DNA from: Pseudodesulfovibrio indicus
GTDB lineage: Bacteria > Desulfobacterota > Desulfovibrionia > Desulfovibrionales > Desulfovibrionaceae
Assembly (NCBI RefSeq): GCF_001563225.1
Contig: NZ_CP014206.1
Span: forward strand, 1,674,001-1,738,000
Direction: 5' to 3'
DNA: 64,000 nucleotides
Shown here in pieces: positions 9,527 to 51,919 of the stretch (its first letter is position 1; the number at the start of each line of letters is the position of its first letter). Under the pieces are notes generated by a model. The model was given only the letters and a program-made list of their open reading frames with translations. It was not told the DNA's origin and made no database searches. Made by a program: the position numbers and the translations under genes.

Positions 9527-9602
<76 letters not shown>

Positions 9603-39239: not shown

Positions 39240-40175
39240 TTATAACGTGTTACGCGCAGAACTGATTTCCCGTAGTTTTTCGTTAGCCATATCTAAAAAT
39301 TGTTTCAGTTCCTTGGGAGTATCTGCGAAGATAGACCATTTTCGTATTACAGTATCAAAACTTGGCGGATCAATTGTGCCCTCGTTGTCATGCTTAAAAA
39401 TGCCTTGTTTTTTGCAAAGGTCTGATTTGAGTATTTGGAAGAATTGAGCGATGAAGATATGAAAGAGCTTACCTCGTCCCCACCGGCATTCATCAATTTC
39501 TTCCAGTTCATCCAGGCATTCCTCAATAGAATCTGCTATTGCCGGAGCTACCTGGACTGTTTGTTTCGGGGGAGATTGAATGGGGCTGTGAAAACAAATG
39601 GTTCCATGTTGGATTTTAAGACTGCTTTTTATCAGTGAGTCTCGAACGGTGAATTTTTTAATATCCTCGTTGTGTTCGAACAGTCGCATGGCCTTAAGCC
39701 AAGCATTCCATTCGCGAGCAGCTTCACAAAATTTAGCAAGCATATCTTTGTATAAACGTATCGCCTTGGCTGTTGCTTTAGATGGCAGTTGGGATTTGTT
39801 TAGCACTCTCGAAATAACATCTGGTGAGATGTATAAGTTTTCTATCGAATAGCAGGGGGTGACGAAGAGGAGGTCGTGTTTTGTTGCCGGGGCAATAAAG
39901 TCATGGTCTACGAAAAATAGGAGTAGCCTTTTATTGTTTACAGAATTTACGGCAAGACGTTCTAAAGCTTTTAAGACACCATCGCGATTTCCACATGAAT
40001 ACGTAGATATTTCTTTGTACCCTGTAGAGAAAATAACTCTAACATCGTAGTATAGATCGTCATTTTTCCCTTCATAAAAGCAATGTAAAGTTTGATTGTC
40101 TTTTTTGTCTATGAATTGCCGAAGCGCTTTCCCGTAATCGGTTTCACGCAACATATTTTTTTTAGTGTCCCTCAC
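39240..40175 (-). CDS. ariB: DUF4435 protein, AriB of a PARIS-type defence system
   Basis: 311 residues from a GTG at 40175 (an ATG at 40154 is an alternative). 'CFYEGKNDDLYY' (E35; E28 from the ATG) and 'LLFFVDHDF' form the acidic Toprim-like active site. 'YSIENLYISPDVISRVL' is the third conserved block of DUF4435. In PARIS, AriB is a Toprim nuclease held by the AriA ATPase and released on sensing a phage anti-restriction protein; it then cleaves host tRNA. The adjacent AAA ATPase 5 bp upstream is the expected partner. Confidence 0.85.
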   Translation of the reverse strand: MRDTKKNMLRETDYGKALRQFIDKKDNQTLHCFYEGKNDDLYYDVRVIFSTGYKEISTYSCGNRDGVLKALERLAVNSVNNKRLLLFFVDHDFIAPATKHDLLFVTPCYSIENLYISPDVISRVLNKSQLPSKATAKAIRLYKDMLAKFCEAAREWNAWLKAMRLFEHNEDIKKFTVRDSLIKSSLKIQHGTICFHSPIQSPPKQTVQVAPAIADSIEECLDELEEIDECRWGRGKLFHIFIAQFFQILKSDLCKKQGIFKHDNEGTIDPPSFDTVIRKWSIFADTPKELKQFLDMANEKLREISSARNTL

Positions 40176-40180
40176 AATAG

Positions 40181-41533
40181 TTACTTGGCAAATGAAGATA
40201 TATTGTTGGTATACTCAACAAGAGAATTGTCAAAAATAAACGGTGAGTGGGTCGCGGCGATAATAAGCGAGCAGCTGTCCGTCATAATTATGTCTTCTAG
40301 ATACCTACTCTGCCATTCGATTGAAAGTGAAAGATCAGGTTCGTCGAAAAGAAGTATATTGTTGCTTCTGTGTCCCAACAGCAGTTCAGAGAAAAGATAT
40401 AATATTTGTTTTTCTCCTGACGATAAATCCACAAGGTGAATTCTGTCTCCATCCTTATGTTTGACATAGAATTCTAATTCCTTGTCGTCATAAATGGCTT
40501 CCTTTTCAAATAGGTAGGAACTGCATATGGATGCATACTTTTTCATCTTTATATGTCCATCTATGCTATTTTTGTAGGCATCCATTAATGCATTAAGCAA
40601 TTCTAATAGGTTGGAGTCGTTTTGACTTTCGTATAGATCGCCCGTTTTTACTTTGTTCAGGATTGTTGTTTTTACTTCATCGCTAACGCCTCTGCCAACT
40701 CGTTCTAGAAGATATTTCACGTTGGCTTGTAGCAACTCCGGTTTTTCTTCACTTGGTGCTGATTGGGAAGTGAGGTTGTTGATCATCCTACTTGCAACAT
40801 TGGATAGTCCCTCTACGGCATGAGATTTCATCATCCCTAAGCAGTCGTCTATGTATTTCTGGACTTTCCCCATGCCCGTTGTCTTTTCTTCATCAAGTTC
40901 CTTTTCCATTATCATTCTGGGAGTGCTGTCGAACCTTGTTCCCCAAGGCTCAATAATTCGGGAGGTCGGCAGAGGGAGGAGGCTTTCGTTTAACTCCCGA
41001 ATTACCTTTTTTCCTGCTTTACTTCGATAGATGTCCGTTGATCCTATGGTGGAGTAATATTCATCAACAAATACGCTTAGCCATGAGGAATATTTATCTA
41101 TTAGTTTTTTATATTTAGTCGTGGCTTTAAATTCTTTTGCTGTCCTGTACATTAAATATGAGCGTGTTCTGGTATAGTCCTTAGCACTCATCCTTTCTTT
41201 GAGGGCATGCAACAAATCGAGCCTTTGGGTGTGGTCAACTGGTTTATCTATAAGATCCGATTGCCTGGTCTCAAAGATTGTTCCATCTTTAAACGTGATT
41301 ACTGCTTTGTTAAATCGAAATTTTAGTAGTTCTTTTCGGTCTCCACTTATTAAAGCACGAATGAGCCGAACAACGGTAGTTTTCCCAGAGCCATTTTCCC
41401 CGACAAAAATATGAATTCCATCCTCCATGGGGAGTTCGTAACTCTTGGTCCCGAAGAGACCGTCTATGCTTATTGAAGCAACCGGGTTTTTGTCCTTCAT
41501 AGCTCGGAGTGAGGTTGCTAAAGATTCTTCCAT
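40181..41533 (-). CDS. ariA: AAA/ABC-type ATPase, AriA of a PARIS-type system
   Basis: 450 residues. Walker A 'FVGENGSGKTTVVRLI' (residues 43-58), a long helical insertion (~150-340), then signature 'DLSSGEKQIL' and Walker B 'NILLFDEPDLSL' followed by the His of 'AATHSPFIFD'. This SMC/ABC-like layout is that of AriA and of OLD/GajA-type ATPases. Here the Toprim part is a separate DUF4435 protein, which fits the two-gene PARIS form. The stop at 40181 is 5 bp before the DUF4435 start. ATG at 41533; a second in-frame ATG 11 codons on is possible. Confidence 0.87.
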   Translation of the reverse strand: MEESLATSLRAMKDKNPVASISIDGLFGTKSYELPMEDGIHIFVGENGSGKTTVVRLIRALISGDRKELLKFRFNKAVITFKDGTIFETRQSDLIDKPVDHTQRLDLLHALKERMSAKDYTRTRSYLMYRTAKEFKATTKYKKLIDKYSSWLSVFVDEYYSTIGSTDIYRSKAGKKVIRELNESLLPLPTSRIIEPWGTRFDSTPRMIMEKELDEEKTTGMGKVQKYIDDCLGMMKSHAVEGLSNVASRMINNLTSQSAPSEEKPELLQANVKYLLERVGRGVSDEVKTTILNKVKTGDLYESQNDSNLLELLNALMDAYKNSIDGHIKMKKYASICSSYLFEKEAIYDDKELEFYVKHKDGDRIHLVDLSSGEKQILYLFSELLLGHRSNNILLFDEPDLSLSIEWQSRYLEDIIMTDSCSLIIAATHSPFIFDNSLVEYTNNISSFAK

Positions 41534-41716: not shown

Positions 41717-42052
41717 ATGTCTGGATCAAGTGGTATGCGATCAGGGCTTTTTGCCCTTGTTGGTGGGGGCGACGGCGATTGCTATGACTATTATGAAAGT
41801 ACAATACTCAACTCGCCCGATCCGGATGTCCTTGAGAATATATCAGAATCTGAGATTTTAGATATAGAGTTTGATGGTAATACTGTTTATGCGGTTGATG
41901 ACGATGGTGCTTACGCAGGATCAATCACAACCGGAAGTCTTGCTGTACTTATTGGCTGTATTGAAATGGGCGTAGATTTCATTGCGATTGTCGAAGATCT
42001 CGATGGCGGGAGGTGCGTAGTAACTGTGCAGCCAGAAAGCGATTATGAGTAA
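41717..42052 (+). CDS. Small Gly-rich-start protein A of the deazaguanine cluster
   Basis: 111 residues from the ATG at 41717 (AAGGAAGTCT upstream). N terminus 'MSGSSGMRSGLFALVGGGDG', then a ~90-residue domain with 'LNSPDPDVL', 'VYAVDDDGAYAGSITTGSLA', 'CIEMGVDFIAIVEDLDGGRC'. It is clearly paralogous to 43888-44232: both share the MSG start and Cys22, Cys81/85 and Cys100/104 in register. It overlaps the SagB-like gene (TAATG). No known family recognised. Possible modified substrate or carrier of the neighbouring enzymes. Confidence 0.7.
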   Translation: MSGSSGMRSGLFALVGGGDGDCYDYYESTILNSPDPDVLENISESEILDIEFDGNTVYAVDDDGAYAGSITTGSLAVLIGCIEMGVDFIAIVEDLDGGRCVVTVQPESDYE

Positions 42053-42729
42053 TGCCTAATCTCGATAGCCCTCGACCAAGACATAGCCAGCGAGCCTTTG
42101 GTAAGCAAAAGTTTAACGTTGTTAAAAAGAGATATCTCCCTCGCCCTAATGTTAGTTGTGGGGAAAGTTTTTGGAGTGTGGTTGAGAATAGGCGAACACG
42201 TCGCGAGTTTGAATCAATTTCAATTGATTTTCTCGCAAGTCTTTTGTGGTATTCTGCTCACCCCCGGAAGGTTCGAAAGGACGAGCAAGGATTCGAAACC
42301 CAATTCCGCCCACCCCCGTCTGCCGGTGGGCTGCACCCGATAGAGATATTAGTTGTGAGGCCAGACGATTCTGGCTGGCTCCCTTATGTCTACGATCCCA
42401 AAGCTCATTGCCTTTGCCAGATTGGAGTTGACGATGCGAAGGTTAGCTCATTCGTGTATGACGTGGAAGATGTGATACCGATTCAGAATGGAACCATTTT
42501 ATGGCTCGCAGCCAACTTTGAGAAAACAAGGGCGAAGTATCACAATGCTGATAGCTTAGTATGGCGGGATGCGGGAGTGTTGATTGGACACATGGCGCTT
42601 GTCGCAGAAGCTCTCTCTCTTTCCTATTGTCCTTTAGGAATTACTGGTGAGCCTATGGTCTCAGAGTTGTTGTCATCAACTGGGCTAGTTGGAGTTGGAG
42701 GGGCCGTTATCGGCGAGCAGGTGCCTTAA
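42052..42729 (+). CDS. SagB-type nitroreductase-fold oxidoreductase
   Basis: 225 residues; its ATG shares a base with the stop of protein A. 'FWSVVENRRTRREFESISID' and 'PPPSAGGLHPIEILVVR' are typical of SagB/ThcOx FMN oxidoreductases, which oxidise heterocycles on modified peptides. The C terminus 'SLSYCPLGITGEPMVSELL' completes the fold. Coupling to a small Gly/Cys-containing protein suggests that this protein, or a partner, is the substrate. Confidence 0.8.
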   Translation: MPNLDSPRPRHSQRAFGKQKFNVVKKRYLPRPNVSCGESFWSVVENRRTRREFESISIDFLASLLWYSAHPRKVRKDEQGFETQFRPPPSAGGLHPIEILVVRPDDSGWLPYVYDPKAHCLCQIGVDDAKVSSFVYDVEDVIPIQNGTILWLAANFEKTRAKYHNADSLVWRDAGVLIGHMALVAEALSLSYCPLGITGEPMVSELLSSTGLVGVGGAVIGEQVP

Positions 42730-42732
42730 TTC

Positions 42733-43092
42733 CTATTTCTTTCCTGAATAGATGGCTCCAGACGATGGGGTCTCTTTGACGACGACTTTTGACAAGCCGG
42801 GCAGGTTGTCTTTCAGCTTGTCCCATATCCATATGGCGATATTCTCACTCGTGGGATTGTCCAGCCCCGGGATGTCATTTAGATAATTATGATCCAAAGT
42901 TCCAATTACCGGTGCAGCGATTGCTTTGAGGTCTGAGAAGTCTACGACCCATCCTGTGGCATCAGAAATGTCTCCTGATACATGGATATCAACCCCAAAT
43001 GAGTGGCCATGTAGTCTTGAGCATTTGTGACCATCTGGGACGTTTGGGAGCTTGTGGGCCGCATCAAACGTCATTGTGACGTAGATATCCAT
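42733..43092 (-). CDS. queD: 6-carboxytetrahydropterin synthase homologue
   Basis: 119 residues from the ATG at 43092 (AGGTGTATC upstream; the reading to 43113 overlaps queE). Zinc ligands H in 'FDAAHKL' and 'LHGHSF'; the catalytic Cys in 'GHKCSRLHGHS' and the Asp-His of 'LDHNYLND' are present. 'PTSENIAIWIWDKL' is also conserved. QueD makes 6-carboxy-5,6,7,8-tetrahydropterin from dihydroneopterin triphosphate, the second step to 7-deazaguanines. Convergent with the SagB-like gene (3 bp apart) and coupled to queE. Confidence 0.93.
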   Translation of the reverse strand: MDIYVTMTFDAAHKLPNVPDGHKCSRLHGHSFGVDIHVSGDISDATGWVVDFSDLKAIAAPVIGTLDHNYLNDIPGLDNPTSENIAIWIWDKLKDNLPGLSKVVVKETPSSGAIYSGKK

Positions 43093-43099
43093 GATACAC

Positions 43100-43735
43100 C
43101 TATCGTATACCAATGTATTTGTGAGTTTGAATGCTGAGTTTCCAAAGCGGATTCCGTAAGCAGAAGTCGATCACTTCTCGAGTTGATTCTTTGGCGGTTA
43201 GCCCGTCCTTCGGTTGCAAATAATAATGATCAAAGCTGTATTGCTCAAAATGGTGAATTGATATACCGGGTTGTGGCCATACGAGTTTGAGTTCATTGCC
43301 AGACGTCACAACAAGTCTTGTCCCTGCCTTTGGACTTACCGTGATCCAGTCAATTCCATTGGGTATGTCTGTTGTTCCATTTGTTTCTATGGCTGTTTCA
43401 TATCCATTTGCTTTTGCTTCCAAAATCATTTTGTTGGTCAATTGGAGGGCTGGCTCTCCTCCAGTGAAGACAATATAGGGTTTTGGAGTGAGGCAGGATC
43501 CGACCATGGAATTGATTGTAGCGATTACTTCTTCTTCTGCAGTATAATATCCACCGCCTGGGCCATCAGTCCCAAGAAAATCAGTATCGCAAAATTTACA
43601 AATTGCTGTTTGGCGATCTTTTTCTTTGCCGGACCAGAGATTACAGTTGGAGAATCTGCATAACACGGCAGGGCGTCCTGAGTGGTGTCCTTCTCCCTGG
43701 AGAGTGTAGAATATTTCTTTAATGAAGAAGCTCAA
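43100..43735 (-). CDS. queE: 7-carboxy-7-deazaguanine synthase homologue (radical SAM)
   Basis: 211 residues. Begins at a TTG at 43735 (weak ribosome site), giving 'MSFFIKEIFYTLQGEGHHSG'. The radical-SAM cysteines are spaced C-x14-C-x2-C ('CNLWSGKEK...CKFCDTDF'), the long variant known in QueE. 'VFTGGEPALQL' and 'IETNGTTDIP' are the SAM-binding strands. QueE turns QueD's product into 7-carboxy-7-deazaguanine (CDG), the substrate of QueC. A FolE-type GTP cyclohydrolase is not present here and would have to come from the host. Confidence 0.92.
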   Translation of the reverse strand: MSFFIKEIFYTLQGEGHHSGRPAVLCRFSNCNLWSGKEKDRQTAICKFCDTDFLGTDGPGGGYYTAEEEVIATINSMVGSCLTPKPYIVFTGGEPALQLTNKMILEAKANGYETAIETNGTTDIPNGIDWITVSPKAGTRLVVTSGNELKLVWPQPGISIHHFEQYSFDHYYLQPKDGLTAKESTREVIDFCLRNPLWKLSIQTHKYIGIR

Positions 43736-43887
43736 AAGTTGTTAATCTCACTTCGCGTTAGCCTTGATGATTGAGAACCCATTTTACATGGTTACAGCGA
43801 GACATCCAACTAAAAAACTGATATCCGTTGTCGTAATTTAAGGGAGTTCACGGTTTTCATGCGAAAAAAACGATAAGGAGTCATGTT

Positions 43888-44232
43888 ATGTCAGGAACCG
43901 GTGGCGGCAATGGCGGCGGAAGCGGGGGCGGTGGGGGTGCCCATAGAGAGTGCCCAGATTTTTTTGAAGAGACAGTATTGAATTCTCCAAACCATATTGT
44001 ATTAGCCAATCTTGAAGAAGGTGATTTGCTTTCGGTGTATTTGAACGATGAGGGGGGACACTCTACAGTGCTCGCTGTTGACGGTGATGGAAATTCCGCA
44101 GGGTCGATAACTATTGGTTCCTTGGCCCAATTGATTGAGTGTCTTGAAGACGGGTACGATTATGTGGCTGTAGTCGTAAGCGTGGACGGGGGGCATTGTC
44201 GGGTTCAAATAAGGTTGGAAAGCGATTTATGA
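43888..44232 (+). CDS. Small Gly-rich-start protein B of the deazaguanine cluster
   Basis: 114 residues; AAGGAG upstream decides the ATG at 43888 over an out-of-frame ATG at 43883. N terminus 'MSGTGGGNGGGSGGGGGAHR' is a flexible Gly tract, followed by the same domain as protein A ('LNSPNHIVL', 'VLAVDGDGNSAGSITIGSLA', 'CLEDGYDYVAVV', 'GGHC'). Three cysteines align with protein A. It is coupled by ATGA to the PfkB-NDT fusion and then to the QueC-like gene. If QueC-like enzymes of defence loci attach a deazaguanine to protein N termini, this Gly-rich N terminus would be the natural acceptor (hypothesis). Confidence 0.7.
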   Translation: MSGTGGGNGGGSGGGGGAHRECPDFFEETVLNSPNHIVLANLEEGDLLSVYLNDEGGHSTVLAVDGDGNSAGSITIGSLAQLIECLEDGYDYVAVVVSVDGGHCRVQIRLESDL

Positions 44233-45446
44233 TCACAATATTTGGTGGTGTTTACACTGAAAGGTGTCTTGTGCCTCCTTGGCATCAGATTTATGGGTCA
44301 GGTGGTAGGGCTGCCGCAGCGTTATCTAAACTTTCGGATAACGTGAGGCTTTGTACATATCTTGCCGCTAAAGATATGATCGCTTTTAAGTCCGTGGCCG
44401 CAGTGTACCGTTTTCACTTTGAAGTCGTCGAAGTTGATACTGGTATAGCGTTTGATTATTTTCATGGCTTATCTGTCCCGCACATAGCACCTGCTCCATC
44501 CAAGATAGTTCAGCAGCCTCCAATTATTGGTGAGGCTGAATGTGCTTTGCGATTTGGCTTTATGGAGGGTGATGCCATCGTCAAAGGGGGCAGAGTGGTT
44601 TATGATCCGCAGTCTGCTTCATCTCCGCAGCCCTATCGGGACAACGGATCCGAGGCTGATGTTTTGGCCTATGTGTTAAACAAGCATGAAGGTAGTTTGT
44701 TTTGTGGGAGTCGCAATCCCACAGAAATTTGCAAATATTTACATAAAGAGCACCAGGCTGATGTGGTTGTGTTGAAGATGGGCCCGCGAGGAGCCCTGAT
44801 TAGTGATGGTGGGAAGCTTATGCTGGTTCCCTGTCTTGAAACGGACAATGTCTGGCCGTTGGGATCCGGGGATGTCTTTGCGGCCATCTTTTCTCATTAT
44901 TGGGCCGAAAAAAACGAATCTGCCGAGATTGCCGCGATGCAAGCATCAAAGGCTACAGCATATTATTGTAATACCTCTACGTTGCCGATTCCTTTTGATA
45001 TCGACAAGTTTATTGATTCGGATTGTATCCCGGAGAGCTATGTGAGCAGAGAGGGTGAGGCCCCATTACAGGTTTACTTGGCAGGGCCTTTTTTTAATGT
45101 CGCCGAAAGATGGTTGATCGAAGAAGTGCGAAACGAGCTGCAGAGGAGTGGATTGAAGGTGTTCTCACCCTTGCACGATGTGGGACCGGGGAAAGCTGAC
45201 GACGTTGCTGTAAAAGACCTTAAAGGGGTGGATGATAGCCAGTTAATGTTTGCAATACTAAATGGTCTTGATCCTGGAACTGTCTATGAGATTGGCTATG
45301 CAAGGGCCAAAGGGATTCCGGTGATTGTGCTCAGTCAGAACGAAAAGGAAGAAGATTTAAAAATGATTGAAGGCTCAGGCTGTTTTGTTGAAAATGATCT
45401 AGTTAAGGCAATATACAAAACGATGTGGGTTGCAAATAAGTTATGA
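44229..45446 (+). CDS. PfkB-type kinase fused to nucleoside 2-deoxyribosyltransferase
   Basis: 405 residues from the ATG at 44229 overlapping protein B's stop. Residues 1-265 are a shortened PfkB/ribokinase fold: 'FGGVYTERC', 'YGSGGRAAAALSKL', 'VVVLKMGPRGALIS' and the catalytic 'PLGSGDVFAAIF' (Asp215). Residues 280-405 are a nucleoside 2-deoxyribosyltransferase: 'LQVYLAGPFFNVAERWLIEE', 'DPGTVYEIGYARAKGIPVIV' with the catalytic Glu in 'VYEIG'. Joined, they could phosphorylate a (deoxy)nucleoside or sugar and exchange or cleave its base, which suits work on modified purine nucleosides. Stop overlaps the queC start. Confidence 0.85.
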   Translation: MITIFGGVYTERCLVPPWHQIYGSGGRAAAALSKLSDNVRLCTYLAAKDMIAFKSVAAVYRFHFEVVEVDTGIAFDYFHGLSVPHIAPAPSKIVQQPPIIGEAECALRFGFMEGDAIVKGGRVVYDPQSASSPQPYRDNGSEADVLAYVLNKHEGSLFCGSRNPTEICKYLHKEHQADVVVLKMGPRGALISDGGKLMLVPCLETDNVWPLGSGDVFAAIFSHYWAEKNESAEIAAMQASKATAYYCNTSTLPIPFDIDKFIDSDCIPESYVSREGEAPLQVYLAGPFFNVAERWLIEEVRNELQRSGLKVFSPLHDVGPGKADDVAVKDLKGVDDSQLMFAILNGLDPGTVYEIGYARAKGIPVIVLSQNEKEEDLKMIEGSGCFVENDLVKAIYKTMWVANKL

Positions 45447-46039
45447 GTCTGGGATTGCTGCTATCTGGTGGGATGGATTCGATTTCCATCGCATACTGGA
45501 AAAAGCCGGATGTTGCGTTGACACTTGATTATGGTCAGCGAAGTGCTTCGACGGAGGTTAGGACTGCTGCAAAGATCTGCAAAGAACTGTCCATTTCACA
45601 TGAGGTGATTAAGGTAGATTGCAGCAAACTTGGATCGGGAGATTTGGCAGGAACCCCTCAGGATTTAAATGCACCGTCTAGTGAATGGTGGCCTTACCGT
45701 AATCAAATGTTGATCACTTTGGCTGCCATGCGTGGTATCGCTCTTGGTGTCGATGAGTTGATGATTGGGTCGGTTAAATCAGATGACAGCCATGTCGATG
45801 GACGACCAGAGTTTATTGAAGCCATGGATCGAGTTATGGGAATGCAGGAGGGGGGGATGCGTATAGTCGCTCCCGCGATTGGGATGACAACCCCAGAGCT
45901 TGTCAAGGTTTCGGGCATCACCCCAGACATATTGTGCTGGGCCCATTCTTGCCACACCGGGAATCATGCTTGTGGGGTTTGTAGAGGGTGCAACAAACAC
46001 CGGGAAACGATGATCGCCATTGGCTACGGAAACTACTGA
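45443..46039 (+). CDS. QueC-like 7-cyano-7-deazaguanine synthase family protein
   Basis: 198 residues, some 25-35 shorter than housekeeping QueC. PP-loop ATPase motif 'LLLSGGMDSISIAYW' opens the protein; 'TLDYGQRSASTEV' and 'WWPYRNQMLITLAA' follow as in QueC. The zinc cysteines are at the C terminus ('HSCHTGNHACGVCRGCNKHR'). QueC adenylates CDG and converts it to preQ0. Homologues in the Qat and type IV CBASS defence systems are thought to use the activated CDG to modify a protein instead. Here it is the last gene of the protein B - kinase/NDT - QueC operon, with queD and queE next door to supply CDG. Confidence 0.88.
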   Translation: MSLGLLLSGGMDSISIAYWKKPDVALTLDYGQRSASTEVRTAAKICKELSISHEVIKVDCSKLGSGDLAGTPQDLNAPSSEWWPYRNQMLITLAAMRGIALGVDELMIGSVKSDDSHVDGRPEFIEAMDRVMGMQEGGMRIVAPAIGMTTPELVKVSGITPDILCWAHSCHTGNHACGVCRGCNKHRETMIAIGYGNY

Positions 46040-46048
46040 TAAGAATTC

Positions 46049-46819
46049 TTATTGGGTTACGACTGTAAGTGGTTGGAGCCTTGATATTGCTTTTGTGTTT
46101 AGGCGTTTCATATTTTCCCATATTATTGCGTCCAGCAACGATGGCTTTACATTGATTGCTTTGGCAAAGTTTATGAACAGGCATTCCATTTCCAGGTAGT
46201 GTTTTGGGATTTGGTGGGCTGAGCTAAAGAATCCTGCCAATATTCCTGCTCGATGAATATGGATGTCTAAAATGGCGACCGCATCACTTCCGAGCCAGTT
46301 CCTCACGATCCACGAGGCCGTTTTAAGGCCAACCCCTCTTACACCCAGAAGCCATGATCGCAGCTTGGCTGGGCTTTCTTGAGGCGACTCTTCTTGACTG
46401 AGTTTGGTGAGAGCATCATAGAGGTACTCTGCCTTCTGTCTTGCAAAACGGTAGCGTACTTTTTTCCCATTAATTGGAAGCGGAGAAGAAAGTACTCCGT
46501 AGATTTCTTCTTTAGAAAATACGTCTGCATTTAATAAGCCCGTTCGTTTGAGCCTTGAAAAAGCAGCAATGCCGACCTCAGCTGGAATTCCGTGCCCACC
46601 AAGTAGGCACGCGGCGACTTCTTCTTTGAATGTAGAGCCCAACCTGTACCCTTTTTGATCTAGGTCGGCCTTGAACCACACTTGTGAAGCCCAAAAGGCT
46701 GGTGTGAACAGTTCATCGCATCGTCCCCACAATATGCCAGAAGCCACAGTTCGTTTAGGGGAAGGCAGATCAAGTTCCAACACCTTGCCATCTATGACCT
46801 TGTACACCGTTTGGCTCAT
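46049..46819 (-). CDS. OGG-like helix-hairpin-helix DNA glycosylase
   Basis: 256 residues. The HhH-GPD motif 'LLGVRGVGLKTASWIVRNWL' carries a Lys at the catalytic position, and 'AVAILDIHIHRAG' the catalytic Asp, as in bifunctional 8-oxoguanine glycosylases. The N-terminal half differs from housekeeping OGG/MutY and there is no C-terminal FeS cluster. It could excise a modified guanine, which fits a deazaguanine locus. OGG-like genes are also companions of QueC in type IV CBASS. Convergent with the QueC-like gene (9 bp apart), coupled to the upstream DUF6471 gene by ATGA. Confidence 0.85.
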   Translation of the reverse strand: MSQTVYKVIDGKVLELDLPSPKRTVASGILWGRCDELFTPAFWASQVWFKADLDQKGYRLGSTFKEEVAACLLGGHGIPAEVGIAAFSRLKRTGLLNADVFSKEEIYGVLSSPLPINGKKVRYRFARQKAEYLYDALTKLSQEESPQESPAKLRSWLLGVRGVGLKTASWIVRNWLGSDAVAILDIHIHRAGILAGFFSSAHQIPKHYLEMECLFINFAKAINVKPSLLDAIIWENMKRLNTKAISRLQPLTVVTQ

Positions 46820-47076
46820 ATCTCATCTCCTGCCCTTTTAGGCTGCATTGACGGTTGCGTGAGCACGAGCACGTCGATTTGTAAGACTTCACAGCATTGA
46901 AGCACCCATGCGAAAGAGAATGTGCCTCGGTGCATTTTGCCTCTTATTCCGCTGATGGTCTCTGAATAGCCTGCCTCAGTTAGCATCCCCGCCAGCGCTT
47001 TGTGGCTAACCCCTCGGCGCGCCAATTCTGATTTTACAATACGCAAGGCTTCTATTTCCATTGGCCGTTTTCCCAT
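46816..47076 (-). CDS. DUF6471 helix-turn-helix protein
   Basis: 86 residues: 'MEIEALRIVKSELARRGVSH' followed by 'KALAGMLTEAGYSETISGIR' and 'GKMHRGTFSFAWVLQCCEVL'. This is the DUF6471 family, XRE-like in fold and found with defence and mobile genes. It probably regulates the locus or supports the glycosylase. ATG at 47076 (an ATG five codons later is possible). A very AT-rich promoter-like stretch precedes it (47100-47165). Confidence 0.8.
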   Translation of the reverse strand: MGKRPMEIEALRIVKSELARRGVSHKALAGMLTEAGYSETISGIRGKMHRGTFSFAWVLQCCEVLQIDVLVLTQPSMQPKRAGDEI

Positions 47077-47652: not shown

Positions 47653-47699
47653 GAATGGCATTCAAGAGGTCGTGGGTTCGATTCCCTCCAGCTCCACCA
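47653..47699 (+). repeat. att copy 2 (tRNA-Ala 3' end)
   Basis: 47 bp, from the anticodon arm to CCA, one change from the tRNA (TTCGATT for TTCAATT). Marks the right end of the 38-kb element. The upstream half of the tRNA is missing, so it is not a functional gene. Confidence 0.93.
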
Positions 47700-47708
47700 A
47701 TGAATTTA

Positions 47709-47742
47709 AAGGCTTAGAAGGTTTTCCTTCTAAGCCTTTTTT
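47709..47742 (+). terminator. Terminator following att copy 2
   Basis: Stem AAGGCTTAGAAGG/CCTTCTAAGCCTT with TTTT loop and T run. The same hairpin follows copies 3 and 5 and is probably the original tRNA-Ala terminator. Confidence 0.9.
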
Positions 47743-47913: not shown

Positions 47914-48987
47914 ATGGATACAGAGAATAAACAAAAAAATAATATGTTAGACGTAACAATGAAAGCTCTTTGTTCTGAGGTGAATACTAAAAGTTTGGCA
48001 AAGGAGAGCGGCTTCGATGAGTGTGAAATCATTAAATGGAAAGACAAAGCTAAGGATGCTCTCTCGAAAATTTTTATGCCACCAATGAAAATACAACCGT
48101 TTGATTCAATTATTGAAAAAAACCTATTGCGTAGTTGTTCTGTCGTTTACGACAACGGCGTGGCGCTTTTGGATGATGCAAGTTTTTTGTACGACAATAT
48201 GAGGTACGCTCGGGCTGTCTCACTTGCCATATTAGCTGAAGAAGAATTTTCCAAGGCGTTGATTCTAAAGATTGCAGTTTTAAATAAGCGTTGGGATGCT
48301 GAATTGTATTCCCCATTGAGATCACATGGGTACAAACAAGCTATTTCTCGTGGTGTGGGAGAGGTTGCAGTTGATCTTGTGAGACACATGCGTCAAGCAA
48401 TGCGTTCATTTCTACCTATTCAACCTTTTCCACTTAATGAGAGAGTGGAACAAGTTAAAAGTGATGTGTCTAAGAAGTATATTAGCAATGGGACGCTCGA
48501 TAAGCTCAAGCAAGATGCTCAGTTTGTTTTTATTGGTAAGACAGGAGTCGCAAATAGAACTCCTTCATCTATTTCAGCAAAAGAGGCGGCAGATGCAATA
48601 AATGAAACAATTCGTTTCAAGGCATGGGTAGATGCATTGTTCGGTAATATTGACGATGATCATCCTTTGCTTAGGGCCGAGACTTTATTGGTGCAACAGC
48701 CAGGAGTGACTACAATCAAATATAAGGCAGGGTTGGATTTCCGTATGTCTATTTTTGAGTCTCAAGATTTTCCTGTGAGGCGTGAAGAAAACCCGTATGA
48801 GATACTTACTAGCTGGAAAGGGTGGGAGCCTGAGTCGTTCGATAAAGAGCAAAAAAAATTATTTTGCTTATTCCTTGAAAAGTACGACGGGATCAAACAG
48901 ATGGAAAAACAACTTCTTGATCTGGGCTTAAAGTCTTCGAAGATTCTTGATGCCTGCAAGAAAATTATATCTGAGTATAACTCTTAG
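47914..48987 (+). CDS. AbiV-family abortive-infection protein
   Basis: 357 residues, cargo of the first small cassette. The middle part 'GVALLDDASFLYDNMRYARA' and 'VSLAILAEEEFSKALILKIA' is the conserved helical block of the AbiV family (first known from lactococcal abortive infection). It has an unusual N-terminal ~55-residue extension and a C-terminal ~150-residue domain that are not recognised. The gene stands alone between att copies 2 and 3. Confidence 0.8.
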   Translation: MDTENKQKNNMLDVTMKALCSEVNTKSLAKESGFDECEIIKWKDKAKDALSKIFMPPMKIQPFDSIIEKNLLRSCSVVYDNGVALLDDASFLYDNMRYARAVSLAILAEEEFSKALILKIAVLNKRWDAELYSPLRSHGYKQAISRGVGEVAVDLVRHMRQAMRSFLPIQPFPLNERVEQVKSDVSKKYISNGTLDKLKQDAQFVFIGKTGVANRTPSSISAKEAADAINETIRFKAWVDALFGNIDDDHPLLRAETLLVQQPGVTTIKYKAGLDFRMSIFESQDFPVRREENPYEILTSWKGWEPESFDKEQKKLFCLFLEKYDGIKQMEKQLLDLGLKSSKILDACKKIISEYNS

Positions 48988-49340
48988 GACACTGGAATTA
49001 GGGGAACACCATACCAATATAATGAATAACCCACCACACCATCCTAGAAGATCCATCTGAGTTGATCCTGAGTCCGATTATGGCTATCTGAGTGAGGACT
49101 CCTTCACCATCCCAACGAGATGAGATCAGCAATGCCTTACATCGGATGTACTCAAAAGCTTTTAACTGAGATCAAGCCAGCACAAATTCTAGAGCCTACC
49201 AGCCAACGTGGGCTACAAGGCTGGCATGGGAACATCTTCAGATTCTTCCGTAGAAAATCCGTTTTGTTGGTCAACGATGAAACTCGGTTTGCCGTATTTA
49301 TGTCCGGATTGGTCAGGAAGGTCTTCATTGATTTCGGCCA

Positions 49341-49367
49341 TGTGTTCAATTCTATCCAGCTCCACCA
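49341..49367 (+). repeat. att copy 3, decayed
   Basis: Only the last 27 bp of the tRNA are recognisable, with changes (TTCAATTCTATCCAGCTCCA then CCA). The conserved hairpin follows at once, which supports common descent with copies 2 and 5. Confidence 0.75.
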
Positions 49368-49376
49368 TGAATATTA

Positions 49377-49410
49377 AAGGCTTAGAAGGTTTTCCTTCTA
49401 AGCCTTTTTT
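49377..49410 (+). terminator. Terminator following att copy 3
   Basis: Same AAGGCTTAGAAGG hairpin plus T run as at 47709 and 51886. Confidence 0.88.
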
Positions 49411-49694: not shown

Positions 49695-50483
49695 ATGTAC
49701 GATAAAACAGCACTTATTGATCATCTCTTGACTCTTGTCGACCTTCAGCCGTCCGGAGCCCTGTTGGATGTCGGATGTGGCGATGGCCAGATGCTGTTTG
49801 CCGCGAGTAACGTGTTTGGAAGTTCATCGTTCTTCGGCATTGATATGATGCCTGCTCCGATACAAAGGGCTGAATCGTTGTCTCGTGGAGAGAGTCGGCT
49901 AAGCTTCGTTATTCATGATGTCGATGAAGGGCTGCCTTGTCCAGACGGCGCGTTTGACTACATTCTGTGTTGCAACGTGTTGGAGTGCATTAAGAGGAAG
50001 GAATATCTTCTACGCGAGATGCATAGGGTGCTCAACGCTGCGGGAAAGGTCGTTATTTCGCACTTTGATTACGACACCATCGTCTTCAACGTAACAAATC
50101 GGGATGGTTACAGAAAGATATTGCACGCCTACAGTGATTGGAAGCAGCCTTGGATGGGAGAATGTGATCCCTGGACCGGGAGGAAGCTGTGGGGAATTCT
50201 CAACAGAGTTCCTGGGCTGTTTGTCGGGGAGATGAAGTCCTTCGTGTTGCACGAAACCGAATACCGGGAAGGGGCAAAGGGCTACTCCTTCGTGAAGGAA
50301 GAGTTAAGAGACCTCGTCAAGCATGGAGCCATTGCGCCCCAAGAATATGAAGCCTTTTCCGCCGATGTGGAGAACGCCGTCAGGAACAACGAATTTTTCT
50401 TCAGTATTAATCTGTATACCTTTGTGGGCCGTAAAGTGGAGTCACGCGCTTGCGGCTCGGAGTCAACGACAACGTCCCGGTAA
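49695..50483 (+). CDS. SAM-dependent class I methyltransferase
   Basis: 262 residues, cargo of the second small cassette. SAM-binding motif I 'ALLDVGCGDGQMLFAAS' (residues ~17-33), acidic 'FFGIDMM', motif 'DYILCCNVLECIKRKEYLLR' and 'GKVVISHFDYD' follow the usual order of Rossmann methyltransferases. Substrate unknown; the later part resembles small-molecule rather than DNA enzymes (no DPPY or NPPY). Confidence 0.82.
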   Translation: MYDKTALIDHLLTLVDLQPSGALLDVGCGDGQMLFAASNVFGSSSFFGIDMMPAPIQRAESLSRGESRLSFVIHDVDEGLPCPDGAFDYILCCNVLECIKRKEYLLREMHRVLNAAGKVVISHFDYDTIVFNVTNRDGYRKILHAYSDWKQPWMGECDPWTGRKLWGILNRVPGLFVGEMKSFVLHETEYREGAKGYSFVKEELRDLVKHGAIAPQEYEAFSADVENAVRNNEFFFSINLYTFVGRKVESRACGSESTTTSR

Positions 50484-50541
50484 TATGGGGCCACTGTGAG
50501 ATGCCTACCGCTGAACAGGAGTACCCTCGCAAGGGTTTTAG

Positions 50542-50585
50542 TGGCATTCAAGAGGTCGTGGGTTCAATTCCCTCCAGCTCCACCA
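50542..50585 (+). repeat. att copy 4 (tRNA-Ala 3' end)
   Basis: 44 bp identical to the tRNA from TGGCATTC to CCA. Followed by a different tail from copies 2, 3 and 5, starting 'CTAAAATTTCC', so this boundary belongs to another element end, as at copy 1. Confidence 0.93.
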
Positions 50586-50601
50586 CTAAAATTTCCGAAG
50601 A

Positions 50602-50642
50602 AAAAGGACCGGTTAGCTTGATAGGCTATACGGTCCTTTTCC
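50602..50642 (+). terminator. Terminator following att copy 4
   Basis: Arms AAAGGACCG and CGGTCCTTT with a ~19-nt loop and a T-rich end. Unlike the AAGGCTTAGAAGG hairpin of the other copies. Confidence 0.65.
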
Positions 50643-51831: not shown

Positions 51832-51876
51832 ATGGCATTCAAGAGGTCGTGGGTTCAATTCTCTCCAGCTCCACCA
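51832..51876 (+). repeat. attR: att copy 5, right boundary of the island
   Basis: 45 bp, one change from the tRNA (TTCTCT for TTCCCT). To its right base composition and gene content return to the chromosomal type (purT). Confidence 0.92.
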
Positions 51877-51885
51877 ATGAATTTA

Positions 51886-51919
51886 AAGGCTTAGAAGGTT
51901 TTCCTTCTAAGCCTTTTTT
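51886..51919 (+). terminator. Terminator following attR, probably the original tRNA-Ala terminator
   Basis: AAGGCTTAGAAGG/CCTTCTAAGCCTT hairpin with T run, as at 47709 and 49377. Confidence 0.9.

Follow-up and report, generated by a model that had tools for sequence, protein, structure and literature searches.

What does a short QueC-family enzyme do when its gene stands in a compact cluster with genes of small glycine-rich proteins and of several base- and nucleoside-handling enzymes? The question is raised by positions 41717-47076 of a 64,000-nucleotide stretch of Pseudodesulfovibrio indicus DNA (contig NZ_CP014206.1, positions 1,674,001 to 1,738,000; here denoted the window), where a first-pass annotation had proposed nine genes forming an anti-phage system. 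All nine open reading frames (ORFs) were found at the positions given, and profile matches assigned their families: the small paralogous proteins A and B, a SagB-like dehydrogenase, QueD, QueE, a fusion of a PfkB kinase with a nucleoside 2-deoxyribosyltransferase (PfkB-NDT), the QueC-like enzyme (denoted QueC4), an OGG-type glycosylase and a DUF6471 protein. Our analysis indicates that the cluster is probably an anti-phage system with a core of protein B, which carries a conserved tail and a HIRAN-like domain, PfkB-NDT and a Cap9-like QueC that would couple 7-carboxy-7-deazaguanine (CDG) to the amine of the tail through an amide bond. The best-supported reading is that of a third defence system using a QueC-family enzyme for N-terminal protein tagging, with a new target domain; the reaction type is already known, and what we rate as new is the target together with its partner enzymes, and possibly also the final chemistry.

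To describe the recurrence of the gene set, relatives of QueC4 were sought by alignment in species-representative genomes, which gave 267 loci; the best 80 of these, six viral contigs and the window make up 87 loci, and their ORFs were scanned with iterated hidden Markov models (HMMs) that started from the window genes. Near QueC4, PfkB-NDT is found in 84/87 loci, SagB in 81, B in 80 and OGG in 75, indicating that the grouping is not due to chance. Where the locus extends 4.5 kb or more to both sides (67 loci), all four stand beside QueC4 in 60. The proposal that the whole set recurs is thus borne out for B, PfkB-NDT and QueC4, usually with SagB and OGG, and not for queD, queE and DUF6471; each of these was found near QueC4 in 1/87 loci, the window itself (by HMMs from the window sequence alone, which distant forms could escape), and therefore we reject them as core genes and do not count them as parts of the system. 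With ORFs taken from the first start, the order is B, PfkB-NDT, QueC4, SagB with a convergent OGG in 40 loci and OGG followed by B, PfkB-NDT, QueC4, SagB in 25, and the genes are spaced by short gaps or overlap. Judging by record titles, carriers include Proteobacteria, Bacteroidota, Geobacter, Melainabacteria, Spartobacteria and Sphaerochaeta, and the plasmid carriers a cyanobacterium and haloarchaea. Copies in Janthinobacterium and Sphingomonas and in a Pseudohalocynthiibacter strain (L019) that shows no CDG pathway belong to the carriers as well.

Plasmids define the core more narrowly. QueC4 at >= 44% identity is present in 24 plasmid records, and the 11 loci examined all keep B, PfkB-NDT and QueC4 (11/11), with OGG in seven and SagB in four; hence, we regard these three genes as the core and the others as variable. 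SagB and OGG are frequent, yet not found in some branches. A check of plasmids for B homologues without QueC-like genes supported the pairing: every record matched by B (11) is also among the QueC4-matched records. A nucleotide search of plasmids with the whole cluster returned short pieces only. At three loci (L026, L029, L091) a second copy of QueC4, B or PfkB-NDT lies within a few kb, therefore the unit can occur in tandem.

We infer the defence role of the cluster from two things only, its mobility and its neighbours (raw counts, each family labelled by testing one of its members). The window cluster is flanked by an AriA/AriB-like pair on one side and an AbiV-type gene on the other. Among the loci, Tni genes of Tn7-like elements are found in 9/87 (TniQ in 8) and the phage-integrase family in 6/87; the D12 methyltransferase family occurs in 35/87, adjoining OGG in most of them, and the dGTPase family is near in 20/87. 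The gene immediately after QueC4 is annotated as a restriction endonuclease in an Agrobacterium and a Rhizobium, as is the second gene after it in Methylocystis; both tested restriction-endonuclease neighbours contain an Mrr domain. In Moraxella an anti-phage dGTPase follows QueC4, and TIR genes are also found beside relatives of the cluster. The defence setting that the first-pass annotation had suggested is in line with these neighbours. Other families were noted near QueC4 as well: an M78 (IrrE/ImmA-like) peptidase in 4/87 loci (L013:1333-2241, with relatives in L057, L066 and L083), a family of ~480 residues (L032:3728-5176) that stands beside the dGTPase in 6 loci and whose tested member has no Pfam or PADLOC match, and an Nmad3 (nucleotide modification associated domain) gene adjoining a haloarchaeal core (L103:8715-10007).

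QueC4 has 198 residues and scores 87.9 bits against TIGR00364, below the canonical QueC cut-off of 150.3. The YPDC substrate motif is replaced by H-x-D-G, in which H117 and D119 are found in 89/89 rows, and in the tree the QueC4 rows form one group, set off by a branch with support 99/97. Given the score, the changed motif and the separate clade, we reject QueC4 as a canonical QueC (preQ0 synthase). The closest solved structure to the predicted QueC4 is Cap9 (9nto_B); the same tree contains a single Cap9 row, a partial sequence on a long branch, whose position is not fixed. QueC4 aligns only to residues 149-375 of QatC. In phage records the QueC homologues found have no more than 26-31% identity and are annotated as queuosine/preQ0 type. 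By analogy with Cap9, QueC4 is predicted to conjugate a deazaguanine to a protein N-terminus.

In protein B (114 residues), a variable, glycine-rich linker joins a conserved N-terminus to a domain some 90 residues long; the motif LNSP...AGSIT...GG.C is common to A and B. At E <= 0.1 protein B has no match in Pfam, NCBIfam or PADLOC, and the sole match of protein A in these is one sub-threshold Pfam match. The N-terminus is of the Ser-Gly type in 80/81 locus B genes, with Ser at position 2 in 78/80 and Thr in 2/80; archaeal or archaeal-like copies have Gly (3/5) or Cys (2/5) at this position, and the exposed-Gly MGGS target of type IV CBASS was not found. A protein search with an archaeal B returned two relatives. 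The predicted model of the domain of B resembles the HIRAN fold, suggesting that the domain of A and B folds like HIRAN, a DNA-end binding domain. The family PF08797 (HIRAN) is not among the 25 of 29 families that are the matches listed for 60 B-family members. The claim that the QueC-like enzyme modifies A and B gains support from the conserved N-terminus of B on its flexible linker, the Cap9-closest predicted fold and the co-occurrence of B with QueC4, all of which point to B as a probable substrate.

The partner enzymes retain conserved residues, D215 and E354 of PfkB-NDT in 80/81 rows and K166 and D185 of OGG in 76/76, which we take to be catalytic. In the SagB-like protein, Tyr163 is found in 80/80 rows and is preceded by Lys in 45/80. 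This conservation suggests that all three enzymes are active; their substrates and working order are a matter of inference. The SagB-like protein scores just below the cut-off of the SagB azoline dehydrogenase profile TIGR03605, and its matches among PDB sequences are CyaGox, a SagB-type dehydrogenase and BmdC. CyaGox and BmdC are azoline oxidases. An OGG partner also occurs in type IV CBASS.

The source of the CDG was followed in the host and in other carriers. In the host genome (3.97 Mb) QueC4 is the only PF06508 match and the island QueE the only QueE above the cut-off; a second QueD lies outside the island, and the single TGT match, at 2.52 Mb, outside the window. None of 24 other genomes of the genus has a match to QueE (TIGR04508, E <= 1e-6) or to QueC (E <= 1e-10). 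Here, therefore, queD and queE look like a local CDG supply carried by the island, and their arrival alongside QueC4 is consistent with a CDG requirement. The pathway was further examined in 50 isolate genomes from the 80 loci, leaving out 22 metagenome-assembled, binned or uncultured genomes, 7 Pseudomonas isolates and 1 second locus of an included genome. A second QueC, of canonical strength (E < 1e-50), is present in 43/50 of these carriers and a QueE match in 42/50; TGT was found in 10/10 genomes checked.

Several observations weigh against a CDG-tagged, HIRAN-like protein in defence. Four carriers (G001, G013, G018 and G045) keep full-length core genes and show no canonical-strength QueC, no QueD and no TIGR04508 QueE match (G001 gave one 23-bit TIGR03365 match); in a fifth, G004, with only a weak QueD-like match, the CDG pathway is apparently absent too, and G017, G033 and G035 have QueC without a TIGR04508 match, G017 also without QueD. 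The base-stacking Tyr of YPDC is His117 in QueC4, and the bacterial B tail exposes Ser whereas the CBASS and Qat tails expose Gly. The HIRAN likeness comes from a predicted model, with a Foldseek E of 1.3e-3 at best; window B has no Pfam HIRAN (PF08797) match at E <= 1, and hhalign of B against five HIRAN sequences gave a probability of 31% (E 5e-4). In addition, the genome-locus counts describe nearest relatives (51-64% identity), and the defence-neighbour counts have no background rate for comparison. As to the carriers lacking the pathway, a Vut_1 transporter gene (PF02592, queuosine-precursor type, a family annotated for queuosine salvage) is present in 4/87 loci (L019:9203-9844, L044:1368-1955, L049:4628-5236 and L074:1628-2308), two of them in G013, directly after SagB, and in G004, and two outside the 50 genomes. 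In the loci fetched from G001, G018 and G045, no Vut_1 gene was seen. We know of no import of CDG itself, and Vut_1 beside the core genes in G013 and G004 is a partial answer to the missing pathway. The copies in carriers without a visible CDG pathway would have either no substrate, or a substrate from elsewhere, or another ligand.

Another ligand would leave the architecture unchanged, with QueC4 attaching to the B tail a non-CDG acid that has a 2-amino-4-oxopyrimidine edge, such as a pterin carboxylate. The apparent absence of the CDG pathway in 5/50 carriers and the His in place of the base-stacking Tyr are in keeping with this; we nevertheless consider it unlikely, given an island that carries queD and queE in a genus otherwise without QueE and QueC matches, a Vut_1 transporter gene adjoining the cluster in two of those five carriers, and a QueE match in most carriers, though relatives of carriers may have it too. 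Distinctly doubtful, in our view, is a small-molecule pathway, in which a modified deoxynucleotide, the product of QueC4, PfkB-NDT and their partners, is incorporated into DNA or depletes a pool, protein B being only a DNA-binding helper. The conserved kinase and NDT residues would fit such a pathway, as would the OGG, D12 methyltransferase and dGTPase families, which work on DNA or dGTP, and the Nmad3 gene that adjoins an archaeal copy. However, the island has no TGT or DpdA, the sole host TGT match lying elsewhere, and the conserved N-terminus of B and its association with QueC4 are left unexplained.

Purine salvage, which Libby et al. (2026, PMC13329287, main text) put forward, with regulation as the other option, for Cluster 4 of PF06508, draws on PfkB-NDT adjoining QueC4 in about 89% of Cluster 4 neighbourhoods. 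We hold this to be very unlikely for the present set, which occurs on plasmids, near Tn7-like genes and beside defence genes, and which includes a linked HIRAN-like small protein with a conserved tail that the main text of that paper does not mention; the words nitroreductase, OGG, glycosylase, small protein and HIRAN do not occur in it. Most improbable of all is a peptide natural product, with A and B as RiPP-like precursors (ribosomally synthesized and post-translationally modified peptides) in which SagB makes azoles. CyaGox and BmdC among the solved relatives of the SagB-like protein, the Gly/Ser-rich tails of A and B and the M78 peptidase family at a few loci agree with it, but B retains a predicted folded domain and SagB was not found in 7/11 plasmid loci that keep B and QueC4.

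For the favoured reading, N-terminal tagging of B with CDG, the events may run as follows. CDG would come from the host pathway in most carriers and here from the island queD and queE; in two carriers without the pathway, the queuosine-precursor-type transporter beside the core genes may contribute. After removal of Met, QueC4 would adenylate CDG and then acylate the N-terminal residue of B, as Cap9 does with the CD-NTase, the acceptor being Ser or Thr in bacteria and Gly or Cys in the archaeal copies. PfkB-NDT may then act on or read the protein-bound base, comparable to the reading by the base-exchange-type Cap10 in type IV CBASS. Finally, the tagged HIRAN-like protein would sense phage DNA ends or replication intermediates, with a DNA-acting partner that depends on the locus: the OGG glycosylase, a D12 methyltransferase, a restriction nuclease or a dGTPase.

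A more tentative idea, rather unlikely in this specific form, is that B builds a deoxynucleotide on its own N-terminus. QueC4 would couple CDG, NDT would add 2'-deoxyribose and PfkB would phosphorylate it, giving a protein-linked dGMP mimic; in bacterial loci of the common form, SagB may in addition oxidise an oxazoline closed on the Ser side chain. To the HIRAN pocket the tag would look like a DNA 3' end, and OGG, dGTPase or a nuclease would either process this state or be freed by it. In favour of the idea are the conserved kinase and NDT residues and a recurrent enzyme set that would work on guanine, deoxyribose or its phosphate. All SagB-positive loci with an identified B start have Ser or Thr at position 2, and three haloarchaeal loci without a SagB match have Gly or Cys. 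A strict rule, by which SagB goes with a Ser tail and its absence with a Gly tail, fails on L075, L089, L090, L102, L107, L128 and L129. At these bacterial or viral loci, at least seven in number, no SagB match lies near QueC4 and the tail still has Ser, so that the link between SagB or azole and the Ser tail is weak.

The coordinates of the cluster and its flanking genes are collected in the table. The expected coupling by overlaps was found for A/SagB (TAATG) and for B/PfkB-NDT, PfkB-NDT/QueC4 and DUF6471/OGG (ATGA), and not for queE/queD, where the likely queD ATG lies 7 bases past the queE stop. Shine-Dalgarno-like sequences precede the starts of A and B. The GC content is 41-47% across 38-52 kb, against 54-68% in most of the remaining window. 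Downstream of the cluster, near-copies of a tRNA 3' end lie at 47672, 50558 and 51849, inside a family of 88-nt repeats containing this end (four copies, 65-100% identity: 47655-47742, 49323-49410, 50541-50628 and 51832-51919); the four copies look like serial integration at a tRNA gene. The tRNA-Ala at 9527 has the same 3' end as the repeats, and the parent tRNA was not located. Between repeat copies lies a methyltransferase-like gene (49695-50483) with a partial match to PADLOC mad2 (54.7 bits).

Features of the cluster and of its flanks (window positions).
Feature	Position	Strand	Evidence
AriB-like gene, PARIS-like pair, directly upstream of cluster	39240-40175	-	PADLOC 88.0 bits
AriA-like gene, PARIS-like pair, directly upstream of cluster	40181-41533	-	PADLOC 97.2 bits
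Protein A, paralogue of B, N-terminus MSGSSG, predicted conjugation substrate	41717..42052	+	48% identity to B; B-family HMM match
SagB-like dehydrogenase (nitroreductase superfamily)	42052..42729	+	PF00881 28.5 bits; TIGR03605 75.5 bits (cut-off 78.4)
queD, putative local CDG supply	42733..43092 (ORF opens 43113; likely ATG 43092)	-	TIGR03367 110.1 bits (cut-off 89.25)
queE, CDG synthase	43100..43735	-	TIGR04508 304.4 bits (cut-off 240)
Protein B, core gene, predicted substrate of QueC-like enzyme	43888..44232	+	Ser-Gly tail, Gly-rich linker, HIRAN-like domain ~23-113
PfkB-NDT, core gene	44229..45446	+	PF00294 and PF05014 (Nuc_deoxyrib_tr)
QueC4, Cap9-like, predicted N-terminal deazaguanylase, core gene	45443..46039	+	PF06508 94.1 bits (cut-off 22)
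OGG-type HhH glycosylase (Ogg-HhH)	46049..46819	-	PF22175 61.3 bits
DUF6471 protein, possibly regulator, local to window	46816..47076	-	PF20075 63.9 bits
AbiV-type HEPN gene, downstream of cluster	47914-48987		PF18728, 47 bits

Protein deazaguanylation has so far been reported for type IV CBASS and proposed for Qat. If the favoured reading is true, N-terminal base tagging would be seen in a third system, on an unrelated target domain, and would thereby become a general strategy of prokaryotic immunity; a QueC cluster currently filed under purine salvage would gain a function, and the HIRAN-like target would link the modification to DNA-end sensing. The window also amounts to a natural experiment, since its island carries queD and queE although neither QueE nor QueC is seen in the other genomes of the genus. 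No description of this gene set as a system was found among open-licence PubMed Central papers, mainly at the level of titles and abstract starts.

As first proposed, the cluster matches neither type IV CBASS, Qat nor Dpd, and we reject membership of the first two given the missing defining genes. In type IV CBASS, Cap9 conjugates deazaguanine to the N-terminus of the CD-NTase (PMC11996544). Both systems have a minimal-length QueC-like enzyme, Cap9 being the nearest structure of QueC4, a target with a conserved flexible N-terminus and a second base-handling enzyme, the TGT-like Cap10 in CBASS and NDT here. They differ in the target, a HIRAN-like small protein rather than a CD-NTase, in the bacterial tail, which here starts Ser-Gly, and in the additional PfkB-NDT and SagB; no CD-NTase was found among 14 window proteins by a PADLOC scan, nor is one annotated in the eleven QueC4 plasmid regions. 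Qat likewise is a defence operon that pairs a QueC-family enzyme with a partner protein, whose disordered tail bears a Gly motif at the N-terminus that is essential (PMC13279940). Unlike the 198-residue QueC4, QatC has ~400 residues with N- and C-terminal extensions, and Thr replaces its Tyr/Asp base readers, whereas QueC4 retains the Asp; the island proteins scanned gave no match to the QatA KAP ATPase or the QatD TatD nuclease.

As in Dpd, mobile queD and queE genes accompany a system that would use deazaguanine, and at other loci a Vut_1 transporter gene does so; unlike Dpd 7-deazaguanine DNA modification, this island has no TGT-family DpdA, nor a TGT-like Cap10. The window queE also led to two Dpd clusters on plasmids (L124, L125), which contain queE, queD, queC and a VUT transporter. 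The SagB-like protein has the azoline dehydrogenases SagB, CyaGox and BmdC as solved relatives, with the conserved Tyr163, and is set apart from them by its score just below the TIGR03605 cut-off and by the lack of a known azole substrate here. The cluster also resembles Cluster 4 of PF06508, for which the main text of PMC13329287 gives the zinc motif CH(x)5CxxCxGCxK, a YGQ motif and PfkB-NDT and helix-turn-helix (HTH) neighbours. The zinc motif fits residues 170-185 of the window QueC4, the YGQ motif is shared, PfkB-NDT is the neighbour in 84/87 loci, and by these sequence features QueC4 fits the same QueC family.

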